Made by a program: the position numbers and the translations under genes. A stretch of 64,000 bases of DNA from Psychromonas sp. SP041. Its GTDB lineage: Bacteria; Pseudomonadota; Gammaproteobacteria; Enterobacterales; Psychromonadaceae. Positions within the stretch are counted from its first letter, which is position 1. The number at the start of each line of letters is the position of its first letter. Location: positions 62,001 to 126,000 of the forward strand of contig NZ_CBRF02000004.1 of the NCBI RefSeq assembly GCF_000470315.2, read 5' to 3'. The notes under the pieces are model-generated. The model saw nothing but the letters and a program-made list of their open reading frames with translations. It made no database searches and had not been told where the DNA came from. Shown in pieces: positions 2,574 through 11,890 of this stretch.

Positions 2574-3407
2574 TTGACCGTCAAGCAACATAAAAACGCA
2601 ACAACCACTCCAGAAATTAGAGCTTTTATTCGCGCTTCTGAATTGCCGACGGCAGTATTAGCACGTCTTTTAAAAATATCTGAATCTACTGTGCGTAAAT
2701 GGCGCCAACGTGAAACGCTTGAAGATGCTTCTCATATTCCGAAACACTCTAAAACAACACTTACCTTGCAACAACAATACGTTGTGGTGCAATTACGTAC
2801 CCATTTGATGCTCTCTCTCGATGAGTTATTAAAAGTGTGTCGTCAATTTATCAATGAAAACACATCCCGTGCCGGCCTACAGCGCTGTTTGAAACGACAT
2901 GGTGTTTCTAAATTAGCCGATATTGACCCTGCTGGTGAATTGATTGAGCTTGAGCAACAGGTAAGCGTTGCGATTCAAGATAATACTTCCGATAAAGTAA
3001 TGAACTCAGTGGTTAATCCACAAGCAATGTTAGACGTCTTAAATCAATTACGCCTCGAAGAAGTGAATAAAGAACAAAGCAGTGAGCTTGCTAACCATGC
3101 GCGAACAGCAAAAACACGTAGTTTAACTTGTTCTGATGTCGTGCAAGTGAGCGTAACAACGTTGCCTGAACTTGATAAAAAGTCAGAGATAAAGTCAGAA
3201 AAAAATATTAAGCAACATCGCCTATTAATCGCTAATGACCCTGACAGTCAGTGGGTTTATGTGGATTTATATCAAGACGATGAAGCGGATGCTGCAAGAC
3301 GTTATATGAAACATGTTTTAAAGCACGCACCATTCCATATTCGTCGTTTATTAGCGGCAAATTATAATGAATTTTTAAGCAGATTTCATTTGTTGAGTGA
3401 ACAGTAA
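2574..3407 (+). CDS. pfaR: PfaR, regulator of the PUFA synthase cluster; IS481-transposase-like
   Basis: The protein has 277 residues and is assigned PfaR from its position directly before pfaA on the same strand. It starts at TTG 2574; no in-frame ATG lies between the upstream stop at 2523 and this TTG, so a slightly earlier alternative start (CTG 2529) cannot be excluded. An HTH spans about 26-46 (LARLLKISESTVRKWRQRE). The whole protein tracks IS481-family transposases as I remember them: TPEIRAFI and ISESTVRKW near the N-terminus, GLQRCLKRHGVS at 101-112, and an rve-like tail (QWVYVDLY at 226-233, HAPFHIRRLL at 251-260, NEFLSRF at 265-271). The positions of two catalytic aspartates appear to be Ser193 and Ala262. 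This suggests a domesticated, catalytically dead transposase acting as a DNA-binding regulator. Confidence 0.85.
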   Translation: MTVKQHKNATTTPEIRAFIRASELPTAVLARLLKISESTVRKWRQRETLEDASHIPKHSKTTLTLQQQYVVVQLRTHLMLSLDELLKVCRQFINENTSRAGLQRCLKRHGVSKLADIDPAGELIELEQQVSVAIQDNTSDKVMNSVVNPQAMLDVLNQLRLEEVNKEQSSELANHARTAKTRSLTCSDVVQVSVTTLPELDKKSEIKSEKNIKQHRLLIANDPDSQWVYVDLYQDDEADAARRYMKHVLKHAPFHIRRLLAANYNEFLSRFHLLSEQ

Positions 3408-3445
3408 AATTCAGCAAATTAATAGTAATGCCATTGGAGAAAATA

Positions 3446-6400
3446 ATGTCAAAAAAGCAAACCACCAACACAGCGTCAGATAAGCGTATTAACTCTCGCT
3501 TACAAGAAACGCCGATTGCAATTGTTGGTATGGCTTCGGTTTTTGCGGAGAGTAAAAACCTTGGACAATTTTGGGATACCATCGTTAACTCTGTTAATGG
3601 CATTCAAGATGTGCCTGAAGATCGTTGGGCGATCGATGACTATTATTCAGCTGATAAAAAAGAAGCGGATAAGAGTTATTGTAAACGTGGTGGTTTCTTA
3701 CCTGAAATTGACTTTGACCCAATGGAGTTTGGCTTACCGCCGAACATATTAGAATTAACCGATATTACGCAGTTAATGGCATTAGTCGTTGCGCGTGACG
3801 TGCTAGCAGATGCGGGTGTCAGTGAAGAAAGTAGCTTTGACCGCGATAGAATGGGTATTACATTAGGTGTTGGCGGCGGTCAAAAGCAGGGCGGGCAATT
3901 AATGTCTCGCTTGCAAGGCCCGGTATTAGAAAAAGTATTAAAAGCGTCTGGTTTAAATGCTGAAGATACCAATATCATTGTTGATAAATTCAAAAGTGCT
4001 TATATTCCGTGGGAAGAAAACTCATTCCCAGGCATGTTAGGCAATGTTATCGCTGGACGTATTGCTAACCGTTTTAACTTGGGTGGCACTAACTGCGTTG
4101 TTGATGCCGCGTGTGCAGGCTCTCTAGCCGCTATTAAAATGGCGGTGTCAGACCTTTTAGAATATCGTTCAGATATGATGTTATCAGGCGGTATCTGTTG
4201 TGATAACTCGCCTTTCATGTACATGTCATTCTCTAAAACACCTGCGTTCACGGATGGCGATTGTATTCGTCCTTTTGATGATAAATCAAACGGTATGATG
4301 ATCGGTGAAGGCGTGGGAATGATTGCATTAAAACGTTTAGAAGATGCTGAACGCGATGGCGACCGTATCTACTCAGTGATTAAAGGTATTGGTAGTTCGT
4401 CTGATGGTAAATTTAAATCTATTTATGCACCACGCCCAGAAGGGCAATTAAAAGCCTTAAAGCGTGCTTATCAAGATGCTGGTTTTGATCCAAGAACGTG
4501 TGGATTAATCGAAGCCCATGGTACGGGGACTAAAGCGGGTGATGCAGCTGAGTTCCGAGGTTTAGAATTACTGTTTAGTGAGAATAATGATCAAAAACAG
4601 CATGTCGCATTAGGTTCTGTTAAATCACAAGTTGGTCATACTAAAGCAGCGGCAGGGACAGCAGGTTTAATCAAAGCAGCACTGGCATTGCACCATAAAG
4701 TATTACCAGCGACCATTAACGTTGATAAACCTAATGAAAACTTAGACATTGAAAATACTCCCCTGTATATCAACTCTGAAACGCGCCCTTGGATGCCTCG
4801 TGCTGATGGTATAAAACGCCAAGCAGGTATTAGTTCATTTGGTTTTGGTGGTACTAACTTCCATTTAGTGTTGGAAGAATATACGTCAACTCAACAGGGC
4901 GCTTATCGTTTAAATGAAGTTGCACAATCATTCTTAATCGCTGCGAATAGCAAAGCTGACTTAATTAATACGATTGAAGCTGAATTAAAGGCGATCAATG
5001 TTGATGTTGAACTGCAACCTTATGCGTTTAACCAGTTAGTTGTTTCTCATCCAGTTAAAAAGATCAAAGAAGATCACGTTCGTTGTGGCTTTGTAGCAAA
5101 AAATGCAACACAAGCTAAACAAATGCTTGAACAAATTATTAAACAATTAAAAACTGAACAGAGTAAAGAGTGGTCAACGCCAACCGGTATTTACTATCGA
5201 GAACAGGGATTAAAAACAGCCGGTAAAGTCGTAGCTTTATTCTCAGGTCAAGGTTCGCAATATGTCAATATGGGACGCGAATTGGTTTGTCATTTCCCAA
5301 GTATGATGGCAAGTCAGGTGTCGATTGATCAACAATTCCATCAAGCTGGCCAAGCTAATTTATCGAATATAGTTTATCCCATTCCTGTGTTCGACGATCA
5401 AAAAAGATCTCAGCAGGAGTTGGATTTACGTTTAACACAGTATGCACAACCGGCTATTGGTAGCTTCTCTGTTGGTCTATTTAATATCTTTAAGCAAGCA
5501 GGTTTTAAAGCTGATTTTATGGCGGGTCATAGTTTTGGTGAGTTAACTGCATTATGGGCAGCAGAGGTTATTTCAGAAACTGATTACATGGCATTAGCTA
5601 TGGCGCGTGGTCAAGTAATGTCATCACCGCAAGACAGTGATCTTGATGCGGGAACGATGGCCGCAGTCATTGGCAATGTCGCAGAGATTGAACTGCAAAT
5701 ATCAACAATTAAAGATGTTAGTATCGCGAACTATAATGCGAATAATCAAGCAGTGATTGCGGGTAGCAGTGAAGCAATAGCGACAGCCACTACACAGTTA
5801 ACTGACAATGGCTTTAAGGTTATTGCATTACCTGTTTCTGCTGCATTCCACACACCGTTAGTTGCACATGCACAGCAACCATTTGCTAAAGCAATCGATT
5901 CTGTCACCTTTAATAAACCTAAGGTTGCTGTTTATGCAAATGCGACTGGTGAAGCACACAGTGAAGACCAAGCGGCTATTAAAGCATCGTTAAAAGAACA
6001 TATTTTACAGTCAGTACAATTTAGTAAAGAAATTAATAACTTATATGATGCTGGTGGACGTATTTTTGTAGAGTTTGGCCCTAAAAATGTGTTAACTCGA
6101 CTTGTTGATAATATTTTAGAAGATAAAGCAGAGGTGTTTAGCATTGCAACCAATAGCAATGCTAAACAAAGTGCTGATTTACAATTACGTCAAGCTGCTA
6201 TCCAATTGGCAGTGTTAGGTGTAGAACTGGATAATATTGACCCATACTCTGCCATTGCTCGTCCAACCGTTGCGCCTAAAAAGTCACCTTTAGCAATGAA
6301 GCTGTCTGGCGCCTCTTATGTTAGTCCTAAAACTAAAAAAGTTTTTGAAGATGGTTTAACTGATAACTGGAAAATCTCTAATACACAACCATCAACACCC

Positions 6401-9400
6401 ATTGTGAAAGAAGTGATTAAAGAGATAGTGGTTGAAAAAATTGTAGAAAAGATCGTTTATGTTGATGCTCAAGGTCAGCCGTTAGTGAATCAACCTGCAT
6501 CGATTCAAGGCTCATCGATTAAAGAAAGTGCGCCTGCTAATAATGACAATCAACAATTAGCTTCAAGTATAGAAAATAGTGTCGATCAATTTGTTAAGCA
6601 TCAATCTGAATTACTGGCCGTACATCAAGCTTATTTGGAAGGGCCGAATCAATATGCCGATACTTTTAAAAGTGTATTAGCAGCACAAGCGGGTCAACAA
6701 ACATTACCGGAAGGGTTAGATAGAACGTTAGCGATGTATCATGATTTCCAAACGGAAACATTGCGTGTTCATGAAACGTATCTGAATAATCAAACTGATA
6801 ATATGCAACAAATGTTGAATACGGTATCAAATACTCAACACCTTCAGTCCAGCTCGAGCGATGTTACTTCTAATAATGTTACTTCTAATAATGTTACTTC
6901 TAATAATGTTGCATCAAATAATACTGCTTCTAATGTCAGTGAAAATGCTAAAACAACTCCGCTAGTTATTTCGAAAAGTACAACAGAACCAGCACCTGTT
7001 AATGCATTAAATTTACAACAGCAGTTACAAGCTACACATCAAACCATTCAATCAGCTCAAGCTAAACCTTCAGTTGATATTCAGCCAGTCAATAAAGAAA
7101 ATAACGAAGTGGCGCCATTAAGTGGTTTATCGGTAGATTCAGCTCAAGCCATTGAAAGTACAATGTTATCAGTAGTGGCTGATAAAACAGGTTACCCAAC
7201 AGAGATGTTGGAACTAAGCATGGATATGGAAGCGGACCTAGGTATCGACTCTATCAAACGTGTTGAAATTCTAGGGGCGGTGCAAGATGAAATAGCCGAC
7301 TTACCAGAATTGGATGCTGAGCAGTTATCACAAATGCGTACCTTAGCTGAAATCGTCACTTACATGAACTCAGTGATGGGATCTATTGTATCGAGCTCAG
7401 CTAATACAGCATCAACTGTTGCCAATTCAGCTACGTCTATCGATACAAAAGCTATTGAAAATACTATGTTATCAGTAGTGGCTGATAAAACAGGTTACCC
7501 GACAGAAATGTTGGAACTAAGCATGGATATGGAAGCAGATTTAGGTATCGACTCTATTAAACGTGTTGAAATCCTAGGGGCGGTGCAAGATGAAATAGCC
7601 GACTTACCAGAGTTAGATGCTGAGCAGCTATCACAAATGCGTACCTTAGCTGAAATTGTCACTTACATGAACTCAGTGATGGGATCTGTTGTGTCGAGCT
7701 CAGTTAATGCTACTAATGCAACGGCTAACACAGCATCAACTGTCGCTAGCTCAACGTCATCTATCGTTGCACAAGCAATCGATATTAACGTTATTGAAAA
7801 GACCATGTTATCGGTAGTGGCTGATAAAACAGGTTACCCGACAGAAATGCTTGAATTGAGCATGGATATGGAAGCAGACCTCGGTATCGACTCTATTAAA
7901 CGTGTTGAAATTCTAGGGGCGGTGCAAGATGAAATAGCCGACTTACCAGAGTTAGATGCTGAGCAATTATCACAAATGCGTACCTTAGCGGAGATCGTCA
8001 CTTACATGAACTCAGTGATGGGATCTGTTGTGTCGAGCTCTGCTAATACTGCACCATCACCCATTGCTAGTTCAACGTCGTCTATCGATGCACAAGCAAT
8101 CGAAAAGACCATGTTATTAGTAGTGGCGGATAAAACAGGTTATCCGACAGAAATGCTTGAATTGAGCATGGATATGGAAGCAGATTTAGGTATCGACTCT
8201 ATCAAACGTGTTGAAATTCTAGGGGCGGTGCAAGATGAAATAGCCGACTTACCAGAGTTAGATGCTGAGCAGTTATCACAAATGCGAACTTTAGCGGAGA
8301 TCGTCATTTACATGAACTCTGTGATGGGATCTGTTGTGTCGAGCTCTGCTAACACAGCATCAACTGTCGCTAGTTCAACGTCGTCTATCGATGCACAATC
8401 AATCGACATTAACGTTATTGAAAAGACCATGCTATCAGTAGTGGCGGATAAAACAGGTTACCCAACAGAAATGTTGGAATTGAGCATGGATATGGAAGCG
8501 GACCTAGGAATCGACTCTATTAAACGTGTTGAAATCCTAGGGGCCGTGCAAGATGAAATCACCGACTTACCAGAGTTAGACGCTGAGCAGTTATCACAAA
8601 TGCGTACCTTAGCTGAAATTGTGACTTACATGAATTCAGTGATGGGATCTGTTGTGTCGAGCTCTGCTAACACAGCATCAACTGTCGCTAGTTCAACGTC
8701 GTCTATCGATGCACAAGCAATCGACATTAACGTTATTGAAAAGACCATGCTATCAGTAGTAGCGGATAAAACAGGTTACCCAACAGAAATGCTCGAACTA
8801 AGCATGGATATGGAAGCGGACCTAGGTATCGACTCTATTAAACGTGTTGAAATTCTAGGGGCGGTGCAAGATGAAATCGCTGACTTACCTGAATTAGACG
8901 CTGAGCAGTTATCACAAATGCGTACCTTAGCGGAGATCGTCACTTACATGAACTCAGTGATGGGAGCTGTTGTGTCGAGCTCTGCTAAAACTGCATCACC
9001 CATTGTTAGTTCAACGTCGTCTATCGATGCACAAGCAATCGACATTAACGTTATTGAAAAGACAATGTTATCAGTAGTGGCGGATAAAACAGGTTACCCA
9101 ACAGAAATGTTGGAACTAAGTATGGATATGGAAGCGGACTTAGGTATCGATTCTATCAAACGAGTTGAGATTCTAGGCGCAGTACAAGATGAAATCACCG
9201 ACTTACCAGAATTAGATGCTGAGCAGTTATCGCAAATGCGTACTCTGGATGAAATCATTTGTTATATGCAATCAGTGCAAACAGGTCCAATAGTGAATGC
9301 TCATTTTTCATTGAATGTTGCGAATGAAGAAACACCTGTTAAGCCAACACCAGAAAAATCGATTGTGCTAGATCCTTCACCAAGTGCAACGGTGGAAATA

Positions 9401-11890
9401 AAAAAGCTTGCTGCACTTGAGTGTATTAACTCAAGTGTTGAAAACAAACATCTGCTATTAGTAAATGATGGATTAGATAGTGGAGTAGCAACAGCTAACG
9501 AATTATCAGCATTGGGTTGGACAGTTACCGTATTAACGCCGAGTTGGGTAAAAAGTAAAATCACTAAAGCCTTTAATAAATCAATTTTACAGGTGAGTTT
9601 ATCGGAGTTAACTGAGCAAACATTAAACCAGGTATTACAAACACAAGCGCAATGGTTGTCAGTTATCTATTTACATCCTAAGACGGCTGTAGAAGGCATT
9701 GCCTTTGAGAGTCAGTATAAGAAAGGCTTACAGTTGGCTTTCTTATTGGCTAAGTTAACTAAGCTTAATCAAAATGCTAATGAAAAATATAACGATGACC
9801 GTGCATCATTTTTGGTGTTAACACGCCAAGGTGGTGATTTTGCTACTCAGAATATTGATAAAAAAGCAGATCTTGTACAAGGTGGCTTATCTGGGTTAGT
9901 AAAAACGTTAGCGCATGAATGGGATAATGTGTTTTGCCGTATTGTAGATATTCCCACTAAATACAATGCTAAGAAAGTGGCGAAGATTGTCGTTGGTGAA
10001 TTAAATGATAAACAACGTCTGCCAGTTGAAGTGGGTTTCAACACTGAAGGACGCTTATCTTTAGTTGCAAAAGAAACAGATAGTTATCAATTAGAAAGTG
10101 GAAATCAATTAGATCAAAATGCAGTCTTCCTGGTTAGTGGCGGTGCAAAGGGGGTGACAGCGCATTGTGTTATTGAAATTGCTAAGCAGTATCAATGTAA
10201 ATTTATTTTACTAGGTCGCTCTCGTTATCAAGCGCAAGAAGATAATTGGTCACTAAGTAGTGCCACTGAAGGTGATTTAAAGAAAGCAGCAATGCAACAC
10301 CTAATAAATAGTGGTGAAAAGCCAAGTCCTAAATTAATTAAGCAGATGATTGGACCTGTATTAGCTAATCGAGAAATTACACAAACATTACAAGCGATTG
10401 AAACATTAGGTGGTATTGCTGAATATGTTTCTGCAGATGTATGTGACAAAGAAAATCTTCAACAGGCTATTAATCCTATCTGTGATTTATGGGGACCAAT
10501 TACTGGTGTTATACATGGTGCAGGGGTGTTGGCTGATAAGCTTATCGAGCAAAAGACATTAGCGGAATTTGACCAAGTTTATAACACTAAAATCGAAGGA
10601 TTGAATGCCTTATTAGCTTGTTGTGAGTTAGAAAATATTAAGCATCTAGTACTATTTTCATCTGCTGCCGGTTTTTATGGCAACCCAGCTCAGTCAGATT
10701 ATGCAATTGCTAATGAGATCCTTAATAAAGCGGCTTACCGATTTAAGGCGTTATACCCAACAACGCAGGTATTAAGTTTCAACTGGGGTCCTTGGGATGG
10801 CGGGATGGTAACACCTGAACTTAAACGTATGTTTGATGAACGTGGTGTTTACATTATCCCTGTACAATCTGGCGCAAGCTTATTAGTCAGTGAATTAGCG
10901 GCTAAACATAATCGTTGTGTGCAGATTGTTGTGGGAACTGATATGTCAGGTACTGACAACGAAAGTCTTGTTGATCAAAAGGCTGATAATGAAAATGTAG
11001 TGAGAGAATCAAGTCATCAACAGATTAAAACCTTTAATCATTTAGATAATGCTTTGTTAGTCGATCACAAAATCGATGGGCAGCAAGTCTTACCAACGGT
11101 TTGTGCTATTGCATGGTTAAAATCAACCTGTGAGAACTTATATCCAGAATATCAGTATCAAGGTATTGAAGACTTTAAACTGTTTAAAGGTATTGTTTTT
11201 GACGGCTCACAAGCTGGTGAATATATTATTGATACTAAGATCCTCGAACATAAAGTGCTTAACAGCAAAACAATCAAAGAATCTGATAATACTTTACGTA
11301 TTGAAGTGACTGTAGGCAGTGAAAATAAACAAGGTAAACCTGTTTTTCATTATAAAAGTACGGTGAATCTTGCTAAACCATTAGTTGAAAATACACCATT
11401 AGCATATCAAGGGATCTTGCCTAAACTCGTTAAAAAACAATCTGTACAAGCAGCATCATTATACCTTGATGGAAGTTTATTTCATGGTCTGAGTCTACAA
11501 GGTATTAAGCATATTCATCAATTAGATGATTCAGGCTTATTACTGGAATGTGTTATTGATAAATCAGTTACTCAAGCTCAGGGTGAGTTTTTACTTGAAG
11601 AAAGCAATGTTTTTGCCAATGACTTGGTTTATCAAGCGATGTTGGTATGGACAAGTAAGCAGATGGGATCGGGTAGTTTACCTACCAGTACTGCTGCCTG
11701 GCAGGTGTTTCGTGAAGTAAAAGCGGACGAATTTTTCTTTATAAAACTCAATATCATTAAAACAACCGGACAAAGTGTATTTGCTGATCTGTTATTGATT
11801 GATCAAAGTAATAACATCATCAGTAAAATAACCGCTGCAGAAGTTACATGCAGTGCAAGTTTAAGTGAGTTATTTAAGGCCAGCGCTTAA
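3446..11890 (+). CDS. pfaA: Omega-3 PUFA synthase subunit PfaA (KS-MAT-7xACP-KR-DH-like)
   Basis: This giant multidomain synthase (2814 residues) carries out chain extension in EPA/DHA synthesis. I chose ATG 3446, which has GGAGA at 3436-3440; an in-frame ATG at 3428 would add six residues. The ketosynthase (~30-480) has Cys223 (DAACAGS), His358 (EAHGTGT) and His398 (VGHTKAA). The malonyl-CoA acyltransferase (~590-900) has Ser696 in GHSFGE. Seven near-identical ACP domains carry the phosphopantetheine serine in LGIDSIKR at 1269, 1370, 1483, 1585, 1691, 1797 and 1903. The ketoreductase has VSGGAKGVT from 2230 and Tyr2419 in SDYAIAN. The C-terminal hot-dog region has an HxxxGxxxxP motif starting at His2541. 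pfaB follows 2 bp after the stop. Confidence 0.97.
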   Translation: MSKKQTTNTASDKRINSRLQETPIAIVGMASVFAESKNLGQFWDTIVNSVNGIQDVPEDRWAIDDYYSADKKEADKSYCKRGGFLPEIDFDPMEFGLPPNILELTDITQLMALVVARDVLADAGVSEESSFDRDRMGITLGVGGGQKQGGQLMSRLQGPVLEKVLKASGLNAEDTNIIVDKFKSAYIPWEENSFPGMLGNVIAGRIANRFNLGGTNCVVDAACAGSLAAIKMAVSDLLEYRSDMMLSGGICCDNSPFMYMSFSKTPAFTDGDCIRPFDDKSNGMMIGEGVGMIALKRLEDAERDGDRIYSVIKGIGSSSDGKFKSIYAPRPEGQLKALKRAYQDAGFDPRTCGLIEAHGTGTKAGDAAEFRGLELLFSENNDQKQHVALGSVKSQVGHTKAAAGTAGLIKAALALHHKVLPATINVDKPNENLDIENTPLYINSETRPWMPRADGIKRQAGISSFGFGGTNFHLVLEEYTSTQQGAYRLNEVAQSFLIAANSKADLINTIEAELKAINVDVELQPYAFNQLVVSHPVKKIKEDHVRCGFVAKNATQAKQMLEQIIKQLKTEQSKEWSTPTGIYYREQGLKTAGKVVALFSGQGSQYVNMGRELVCHFPSMMASQVSIDQQFHQAGQANLSNIVYPIPVFDDQKRSQQELDLRLTQYAQPAIGSFSVGLFNIFKQAGFKADFMAGHSFGELTALWAAEVISETDYMALAMARGQVMSSPQDSDLDAGTMAAVIGNVAEIELQISTIKDVSIANYNANNQAVIAGSSEAIATATTQLTDNGFKVIALPVSAAFHTPLVAHAQQPFAKAIDSVTFNKPKVAVYANATGEAHSEDQAAIKASLKEHILQSVQFSKEINNLYDAGGRIFVEFGPKNVLTRLVDNILEDKAEVFSIATNSNAKQSADLQLRQAAIQLAVLGVELDNIDPYSAIARPTVAPKKSPLAMKLSGASYVSPKTKKVFEDGLTDNWKISNTQPSTPIVKEVIKEIVVEKIVEKIVYVDAQGQPLVNQPASIQGSSIKESAPANNDNQQLASSIENSVDQFVKHQSELLAVHQAYLEGPNQYADTFKSVLAAQAGQQTLPEGLDRTLAMYHDFQTETLRVHETYLNNQTDNMQQMLNTVSNTQHLQSSSSDVTSNNVTSNNVTSNNVASNNTASNVSENAKTTPLVISKSTTEPAPVNALNLQQQLQATHQTIQSAQAKPSVDIQPVNKENNEVAPLSGLSVDSAQAIESTMLSVVADKTGYPTEMLELSMDMEADLGIDSIKRVEILGAVQDEIADLPELDAEQLSQMRTLAEIVTYMNSVMGSIVSSSANTASTVANSATSIDTKAIENTMLSVVADKTGYPTEMLELSMDMEADLGIDSIKRVEILGAVQDEIADLPELDAEQLSQMRTLAEIVTYMNSVMGSVVSSSVNATNATANTASTVASSTSSIVAQAIDINVIEKTMLSVVADKTGYPTEMLELSMDMEADLGIDSIKRVEILGAVQDEIADLPELDAEQLSQMRTLAEIVTYMNSVMGSVVSSSANTAPSPIASSTSSIDAQAIEKTMLLVVADKTGYPTEMLELSMDMEADLGIDSIKRVEILGAVQDEIADLPELDAEQLSQMRTLAEIVIYMNSVMGSVVSSSANTASTVASSTSSIDAQSIDINVIEKTMLSVVADKTGYPTEMLELSMDMEADLGIDSIKRVEILGAVQDEITDLPELDAEQLSQMRTLAEIVTYMNSVMGSVVSSSANTASTVASSTSSIDAQAIDINVIEKTMLSVVADKTGYPTEMLELSMDMEADLGIDSIKRVEILGAVQDEIADLPELDAEQLSQMRTLAEIVTYMNSVMGAVVSSSAKTASPIVSSTSSIDAQAIDINVIEKTMLSVVADKTGYPTEMLELSMDMEADLGIDSIKRVEILGAVQDEITDLPELDAEQLSQMRTLDEIICYMQSVQTGPIVNAHFSLNVANEETPVKPTPEKSIVLDPSPSATVEIKKLAALECINSSVENKHLLLVNDGLDSGVATANELSALGWTVTVLTPSWVKSKITKAFNKSILQVSLSELTEQTLNQVLQTQAQWLSVIYLHPKTAVEGIAFESQYKKGLQLAFLLAKLTKLNQNANEKYNDDRASFLVLTRQGGDFATQNIDKKADLVQGGLSGLVKTLAHEWDNVFCRIVDIPTKYNAKKVAKIVVGELNDKQRLPVEVGFNTEGRLSLVAKETDSYQLESGNQLDQNAVFLVSGGAKGVTAHCVIEIAKQYQCKFILLGRSRYQAQEDNWSLSSATEGDLKKAAMQHLINSGEKPSPKLIKQMIGPVLANREITQTLQAIETLGGIAEYVSADVCDKENLQQAINPICDLWGPITGVIHGAGVLADKLIEQKTLAEFDQVYNTKIEGLNALLACCELENIKHLVLFSSAAGFYGNPAQSDYAIANEILNKAAYRFKALYPTTQVLSFNWGPWDGGMVTPELKRMFDERGVYIIPVQSGASLLVSELAAKHNRCVQIVVGTDMSGTDNESLVDQKADNENVVRESSHQQIKTFNHLDNALLVDHKIDGQQVLPTVCAIAWLKSTCENLYPEYQYQGIEDFKLFKGIVFDGSQAGEYIIDTKILEHKVLNSKTIKESDNTLRIEVTVGSENKQGKPVFHYKSTVNLAKPLVENTPLAYQGILPKLVKKQSVQAASLYLDGSLFHGLSLQGIKHIHQLDDSGLLLECVIDKSVTQAQGEFLLEESNVFANDLVYQAMLVWTSKQMGSGSLPTSTAAWQVFREVKADEFFFIKLNIIKTTGQSVFADLLLIDQSNNIISKITAAEVTCSASLSELFKASA
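7147..9276 (+). repeat. Seven tandem ACP-encoding repeats within pfaA
   Basis: Seven in-frame copies of a roughly 230-bp ACP unit are joined by Ser/Thr/Ala-rich linkers. The distances between active-site serines are 101, 113, 102, 106, 106 and 106 residues. Copies 3, 5, 6 and 7 carry a DINVIEKTM lead-in; copies 1, 2 and 4 lack DINV. Copies 5 and 7 share EITDLPELD where the others have EIADLPELD. The DNA is nearly identical between copies, which points to recent duplication or gene conversion. Confidence 0.97.

Follow-up and report, generated by a model that had tools for sequence, protein, structure and literature searches.

What the gene in front of pfaA encodes, and what it descends from, is the question raised by this locus. 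The window (the whole stretch of DNA analysed, 64,000 nucleotides) carries pfaR ahead of pfaA, and the first-pass annotation proposed that PfaR is a transposase of the IS481 type that lost its catalytic residues and was captured as a regulator. The idea of an inactive transposase is already in print. In the accessible part of PMC4744452 (2016), PfaR of Colwellia psychrerythraea 34H, with the same name and gene order as in the window, is predicted to be inactive and thought to be a regulator; the catalytic residues are described as not conserved, and a model of the protein on the Mu transposase 4FCY is cited there as unpublished data. That part of the paper names neither IS481 nor a binding site for PfaR. 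The open-access literature searched yielded no IS481 origin of PfaR, no PfaR operator and no PTS-linked group of the kind described below, and 'pfaR' was not found in the accessible parts of PMC8174602 or PMC6463001. The proposal proved right and partly known, and it leads to a transposase and terminal inverted repeat (TIR) that look as if they had been turned into a regulator/operator pair. The gene, its parts and its presumed target are listed here.

2574-3407, + strand: pfaR, an open reading frame of 277 amino acids with a TTG start
2595-2723, + strand: first helix-turn-helix (HTH, residues 8-50), the most conserved part, median dN/dS 0.03
2724-2909, + strand: second helical unit of the DNA-binding part (residues 51-112), placed by alignment and model
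2910-3128, + strand: PfaR-specific insert or linker (residues 113-185), largely missing from IS481 transposases
3129-3389, + strand: remnant of the DDE core (residues 186-272), ending before the catalytic glutamate
3150-3152, + strand: codon of Ser193, aligned with the first catalytic aspartate
3357-3359, + strand: codon of Ala262, aligned with the second catalytic aspartate
3446-11890, + strand: pfaA, the presumed target, whose ATG follows a good ribosome-binding site 38 nt past the pfaR stop

Relationship of PfaR to IS481 transposases

The NCBIfam profile transpos_IS481 (NF033577) matches residues 22-271 of PfaR with an E value of 1.3e-23 and also matches all 33 aligned PfaR proteins. The score of 84 bits is under the family cut-off of 224 bits, and the match stops at position 207 of the 284 in the profile. 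The likeness to an IS481 transposase is thus upheld, but not its extension "from end to end": PfaR is truncated, because its sequence ends before the glutamate. The N-terminal HTH and the middle region of IS481 are both present according to the profile match and the alignment. All of the motifs quoted in the annotation occur with the right numbering, VQVSVTTLP at residues 190-198 containing Ser193 and LLAANYNEF at residues 259-267 containing Ala262. Its statement that the linker has diverged most is borne out by a mean pairwise identity of 0.29 for residues 113-185, the lowest of the PfaR parts (0.71, 0.68 and 0.60 for residues 8-50, 51-112 and 216-272); most of the linker is extra sequence that transposases lack.

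General domain searches returned little. Pfam gave weak HTH hits alone for the PfaR of the window, all below the cut-offs, and PHROGs and Pfam together gave weak HTH-type and other sub-threshold hits. One sequence search of the PDB with PfaR produced a single chance-level hit and another produced none.

Catalytic residues and the C-terminal region

The catalytic triad was examined in an alignment of 145 sequences, consisting of 41 PfaR proteins, 31 transposases and 73 others. The two aspartates (D1 and D2) and the glutamate (E) are all kept in 31 of the 31 IS481 transposases, and neither D1 (0/41) nor D2 (0/41) is found in any PfaR. The homologous E is absent from PfaR as well, the few letters in its column being tail residues; the third catalytic residue and everything beyond it, the C-terminal third of the transposase, are missing. 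The 41 PfaR rows have S, Y, N, V, K, M, R, E, A or L in the D1 column and A, R, G, K, E or N in the D2 column. The D-to-S and D-to-A changes of the window are consequently not fixed across PfaR, since the replacements vary; the one feature shared by all 41 is that D is lost. Asn263 and Tyr264, beside the D2 position, are invariant in the 33 aligned PfaR proteins.

Homology of the C-terminal region was measured on the part of each PfaR that runs from the VxQV motif to the C-terminus, scored by itself with a profile of the 31 transposases. The pieces alone score 22-55 bits in 41 of 41 PfaR proteins, compared with a best score of 10.2 bits for shuffled C-terminal pieces (n = 8200) and 1.5 bits for linker pieces. 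The annotation had looked to Pfam rve (PF00665) over residues 185-271, and this match is absent from all 33 PfaR proteins at E values up to 0.01; the related active transposase L047 served as the positive control (4.2e-13). The stretch that rve misses is still matched by the IS481-specific profiles.

Predicted structure of PfaR

The AlphaFold2 model computed from 33 PfaR sequences has a mean pLDDT of 83 and a pTM of 0.70. It consists of two helical units, a beta hairpin and helix formed by the insert, and a final strand, strand, strand, helix. These last elements follow the order of the integrase core, with which the annotation suggested comparing the model, but the expected fourth strand is predicted as a helix. 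A Foldseek search with the model found no match at an E value of 0.001 or better; the best row was a metal regulator (0.022), IstA was third (0.096), and Mos1 and Mu transposase were also among the weak rows near the top. The VIA-align rows are confined to residues 6-122, with paired domains, the Tc3 DNA-binding domain and IstA at Z ~6, so that no RNase H-like fold is listed among them for the C-terminal part.

The N-terminus of the model aligns with the bipartite end-binding domains of IstA (IS21), Tc3, Mos1 and SETMAR. The Z scores for 1u78, 8b4h, 7s03 and 3hos (6.4, 6.0, 4.6 and 4.6) are equalled by paired domains, and values under 8 may reflect a common arrangement alone. The likeness to these four proteins is confined to residues 6-122, and an intact catalytic domain is missing from PfaR. 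A model of an intact relative, of lower confidence (pLDDT 69, six sequences), retrieved IstA at 4e-9 and retroviral integrases from 5e-8 in Foldseek. The IS481 profiles match the C-terminal region of PfaR, which rve and Foldseek miss; sequence evidence thus speaks for the ancestry, while of the RNase H fold, as modelled, probably half at best is kept.

Phylogeny and selection

A tblastn search of plasmids with PfaR gave ISGlo3 (2e-20) and ISKpn27 (8e-19, residues 1-271, 32%) as the best rows among the top 25 of 1301 matching records. The tree was built on 211 columns, with the insert and the C-terminal third left out, from 76 rows: 23 of the 41 PfaR proteins, 24 of the 73 others and 29 of the 31 transposases, L211 and L129 having been dropped. 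PfaR forms one clade (100/100) inside a clade of ISKpn27/ISGlo3-like IS481 transposases (95/95), which argues for descent of PfaR from such an enzyme. The order of the parts, the HTH, the middle region and the core from 'WVYV' to 'F..RF' are alike in PfaR and the ISKpn27/ISGlo3-type transposases. PfaR differs from them in having lost D, D, E and the C-terminal third, in having the insert and in occupying a single place beside pfaA. A conventional HTH regulator that resembles transposases in its HTH alone would agree with the weak, sub-threshold HTH hits that Pfam yields for the window's PfaR; this origin is highly improbable given that C-terminal pieces devoid of any HTH match the IS481-group profile in every one of the 41 PfaR proteins and that the ISKpn27 match extends over residues 1-271.

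Selection was estimated within the window's genus, from ten genomes. The median dN/dS is 0.081 for the whole gene, 0.031 for the first HTH, 0.051 for the middle, 0.110 for the linker and 0.109 for the core, from 17, 23, 23, 10 and 29 of 45 pairs, respectively, kept at dS 0.05-1.5; dS is near saturation (median ~1.1). By these ratios pfaR is under purifying selection, the decayed core included. The profiles, alignment, tree and selection lend most support to the reading of PfaR as an IS481-type transposase that was domesticated and lost its catalytic residues.

Elsewhere in the window's genome (G000) the IS481 profile matches at seven more places, and no score there exceeds the family cut-off.

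Genomic context of pfaR

A scan of 394 genomes of the order with PfaR gave 68 that match. Among the matches listed there is a single pfaR place per genome, and copies at varying sites, as expected of a mobile element, were not seen. The pfaA gene is directly downstream of pfaR in 40 of the 41 genomes fetched, which belong to several families, and the 41st stops at a contig edge. Eight other fetched stretches are without a pfa gene. Two of them (both G037) encode full-length IS481 transposases that score above the family cut-off, five (L049-L052 and L061) adjoin a PTS operon, and L053 is beside neither pfa nor PTS genes.

A terminator-like hairpin lies upstream of pfaR:

2389-2422, + strand: terminator-like hairpin after the formate/nitrite transporter gene; one site versus a mean of 1.0 in shuffled sequence, so a weak prediction

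If the hairpin ends the upstream unit, pfaR begins its own transcription unit, as its position suggests. The listed pfaA open reading frame opens at 3428. A scan for the sigma-70 consensus found 3 sites where 4.0 would be expected, among them a weak + strand site at 3419-3447, just before pfaA. A separate promoter for pfaA is therefore possible.

The product of pfaA, encoded at 3428-11887 of the window as listed, contains seven tandem acyl-carrier motifs (LGIDSIKRVEIL, counted 7 times). Genes for cyanate lyase and a formate/nitrite transporter are directly upstream of pfaR at 930-2321 of the window. The same transporter and cyanase neighbours occur in L001-L003, L008 and L009 and are absent from the fetched stretch near most other pfaR genes of the genus.

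A conserved box upstream of pfaR

The IS481-group TIR was compiled as TGTCrGGTCCCGGaTGATTG from 40 IS ends, each agreeing at 12 or more positions with a seed of 19 letters that had been derived from four pairs of copies. A scan with the TIR matrix upstream of pfaR gave the first pointer to a conserved box, and the TIR of the ISKpn27/ISGlo3 group resembles it. Two features of the window are involved.

2499-2513, + strand: conserved box AGTATCGGTAGATTG, TIR-like, the proposed PfaR operator; 10 of 15 positions identical to the core of the IS481-group TIR
2534-2539, + strand: TATATT, a -10-like hexamer exactly 20 nt after the box

A de novo motif search of 20 pfaR upstreams, using no TIR information, recovered AGTatCGGGTGATTGT with a log-likelihood of 183.9. 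Three letter-shuffled sets gave 36-45, and two dinucleotide-shuffled sets searched with equal effort gave 41 and 47. In all 20 upstreams the best site lies on the coding strand, and the likeness of the motif to the TIR exceeds that of 20,000 out of 20,000 column permutations. The de novo search is not circular; a test on a subgroup of boxes is partly so, the boxes having been chosen by the TIR-like pattern with L058, L045 and L057 left out.

The pattern GT[ACT][CT]C[AG]GNNGATT[AG], a regular expression written when the first TIR scan was known, occurs in forward orientation in 35 of 39 pfaR upstreams, with an expectation of 0.005 per 500 bases from control loci. It is reversed in 1 of the 39 (L023, where it faces a pfaE-like gene) and missing from four, though L007, L058, L045 and L057 show degraded forms. 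The hexamer exactly 20 nt past the box is -10-like in 33 of the 35 cases (TATATT 26, TAATCT 3, TAGTCT 2, TAATGT 2, with TAAGCT 1 and CGTTAC 1 making up the set). The sigma-70 consensus scan found no + strand promoter at the box. The exact form AGTATCGGKWGATTG has 14 sites in 13 of 25 genomes drawn from the window's genus and one more; these are 13 of the 17 genomes with pfaR and 0 of the 8 without it, and the reversed control gave 0. Thirteen sites are upstream of pfaR, and one, in G026, faces a divergent phosphopantetheinyl transferase gene.

Position provides a further comparison with insertion sequences. In 18 of 21 elements the IS left end precedes the HTH codon by 90-126 nt. Of the 21 pfaR boxes in the window's genus, 18 precede the HTH codon of pfaR by 94-116 nt; boxes outside the genus are 147-455 nt away, with 0 of 14 at the IS distance. 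Used by itself, the TIR matrix does not single out the box of the window (shuffle p 0.80); of the 39 loci, 18 have p values of at most 0.05 and 10 of at most 0.01. Within the window's genus the box has drifted, and what ties it to the TIR is the motif of the family as a whole. For a fossil of the right end, the sequence was scanned as far as 150 nt downstream of pfaR, and none of the three best hits per locus was convincing. The minus-strand hits close to the end of pfaR are weak; the best, 12.0 in L059, falls in coding sequence, barely exceeds the shuffled 95% level of 10.8 and was taken as chance.

These data bear on how the box arose. A transposase-derived PfaR may have retained its HTH specificity and recruited the box later, by point mutation, in which case the box is not a fossil TIR. 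The window box, with only 10 of 15 positions identical to the TIR core, the missing right end and the lack of any box at the IS distance outside the window's genus would all agree with later recruitment. The prevailing orientation (35 of 39 upstreams forward, 1 reversed) and the 18 of 21 boxes of the genus that stand at the IS distance from the HTH codon argue against it, and this origin of the box is possible, if somewhat doubtful. The reading preferred here, of PfaR as an IS481-derived regulator dedicated to pfaR-pfaABCD and of the box as the fossil left TIR, has a good probability of being correct.

The pfaE gene was considered as a second target and rejected: only one of 30 pfaE-like upstreams (G026) has a strong forward box, and no -10 stands where it would be expected. 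The search covered the 30 of 32 genomes that have a usable stretch, and low-identity hits may not be pfaE. No pfaE box was found in the window's genome. In G026 (L247) the box at 1501-1515 faces the phosphopantetheinyl transferase gene at 1666-2475 (Pfam ACPS, pfaE-like), which is divergent from pfaR.

PTS-linked relatives of PfaR

When named genomes were scanned with the other decayed homologs, 152 relatives came up, and the best 80 of the 152 were kept (L152-L231). Sixty-nine of these best 80 (within L152-L227) adjoin genes for a PTS EIIC, in part with EIIB and EIIA, an Asparaginase_2 protein and an M17 aminopeptidase; the remaining 11 are transposases or pieces of them. The genera are Buttiauxella, Cedecea, Enterobacter, Klebsiella, Citrobacter, Kluyvera, Hafnia, Serratia, Providencia, Histophilus, Avibacterium, Testudinibacter, Aliivibrio and others. 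In the triad alignment the 73 PTS-type rows, of which one (L053) is not beside a PTS operon, have D1 in 15, D2 in 1 and E in 1. The PTS-linked proteins probably represent a regulator derived from a transposase, with a putative role in the use of glycosyl-asparagine or glycopeptides.

L053 encodes a strongly decayed relative (6612-7520) with a very long branch that keeps an IS481-like C-terminal tail, and its fetched stretch has neither pfa nor PTS neighbours. L176 (5989-6570) and L207 (5974-6474) carry shortened copies of the PTS-linked regulator, and the neighbouring operon of L207 is also in pieces.

TIR-like motifs also occur at the PTS loci. For the divergent set of 21 chosen loci, coding sequence dominated the initial run; it was removed for a second run, which had no shuffled control. 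The motif obtained, TCTCATATGATTaGTT, has its best site in forward orientation in 21 of 21 chosen regions, weak in L179. The exact 17-mer of this box is present in 0 of 16 genomes, so the divergent PTS box is known solely as a degenerate motif. The convergent motif, gTaTCAagTGATTGCT or its overlapping complement, ranked second in the convergent set and comes from the promoters of 10 operons. The TIR matrix alone is unremarkable in most of the 71 PTS-type upstreams.

Whether PfaR and the PTS-linked proteins trace back to one shared domestication was assessed on the tree. The AU test does not reject a single clade (p 0.203, lnL difference 6.2), the tree program warned that two long PTS branches meet, and a TIR-like box is common to both groups. 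The best tree, however, keeps the groups apart with active transposases between them, the PTS proteins and four transposases sharing a branch that is at 91/80 and not starred, and all non-transposase rows are joined in 1% of 200 bootstrap trees. The PTS-type rows also differ from PfaR in keeping D1 in 15 of 73 cases and the C-terminal tail that PfaR lost. A single domestication is rather unlikely on this evidence. It is an evenly balanced proposition that one IS481 lineage gave rise to dedicated regulators at least twice independently, each with the end-recognition domain retained and the element's own inverted repeat as its operator.

The motifs from the PTS loci also bear on whether the TIR likeness of the pfaR box could be coincidental, with the box being the site of another regulator or a plain promoter element. 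The box is a candidate operator picked out by its sequence alone, a -10-like element is within the same conserved block, and the TIR matrix by itself overlooks the window box and most PTS-type upstreams. Coincidence is nevertheless improbable. Three separate motif searches (pfaR, divergent PTS and convergent PTS) each had a TIR-like motif among its top motifs, for which permutations as good numbered 0 of 20,000, 1 of 1000 and 1-4 of 1000, compared with 787 of 2000, 570 of 2000, 261 of 1000 and 86 of 1000 for other motifs from the same sets. The exact box, moreover, is confined to genomes with pfaR among the 25 searched.

Discussion

PfaR is probably a transposase-derived activator that reads a fossil transposon end, the operator being putative. 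The protein has kept the two helical units that bind the transposon end and has lost both catalytic aspartates together with the whole C-terminal third and its glutamate; a lineage-specific insert and a shortened core are maintained by purifying selection. Sequence comparison shows the ancestry, the loss of the triad, the selection, the linkage to pfaA, and the conserved box with its orientation and its likeness to the TIR, whereas binding, activation, autoregulation and the origin of the box from the left end are deduced from these. PfaR would most likely act as an activator on the predicted box, which occupies the -35 place 20 nt upstream of the -10 and would be a relic of the left terminal inverted repeat that the ancestral element carried. 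Because the box covers the -35 place at a fixed distance from the -10, we infer an activator that contacts sigma. The likely unit is pfaR-pfaABCD, which PfaR would activate while also regulating itself, and the weak site at 3419-3447 allows for a second start. In work on Photobacterium profundum, PfaR reportedly activates the pfa genes.

Regulators derived from transposases are familiar from eukaryotes, where FAR1/FHY3 and CENP-B are examples. They share with PfaR a transposase kept for DNA binding. PfaR differs in that its proposed operator itself looks like a transposon end and in that the protein belongs to a bacterium, beside one operon.

If this account is correct, a transposase/TIR pair became a regulator/operator pair in PfaR and, should there have been a second domestication, in the regulator of the PTS/asparaginase/aminopeptidase operon. 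The large set of transposase-derived genes beside the PTS operon extends through enterobacteria and Pasteurellaceae, and no description of it was found in the literature searched. For pfaR the analysis supplies a concrete candidate operator and promoter geometry, and for the regulator of bacterial EPA/DHA synthesis it names the ancestor. It also suggests a general route by which an insertion sequence may supply a regulator and its operator together.
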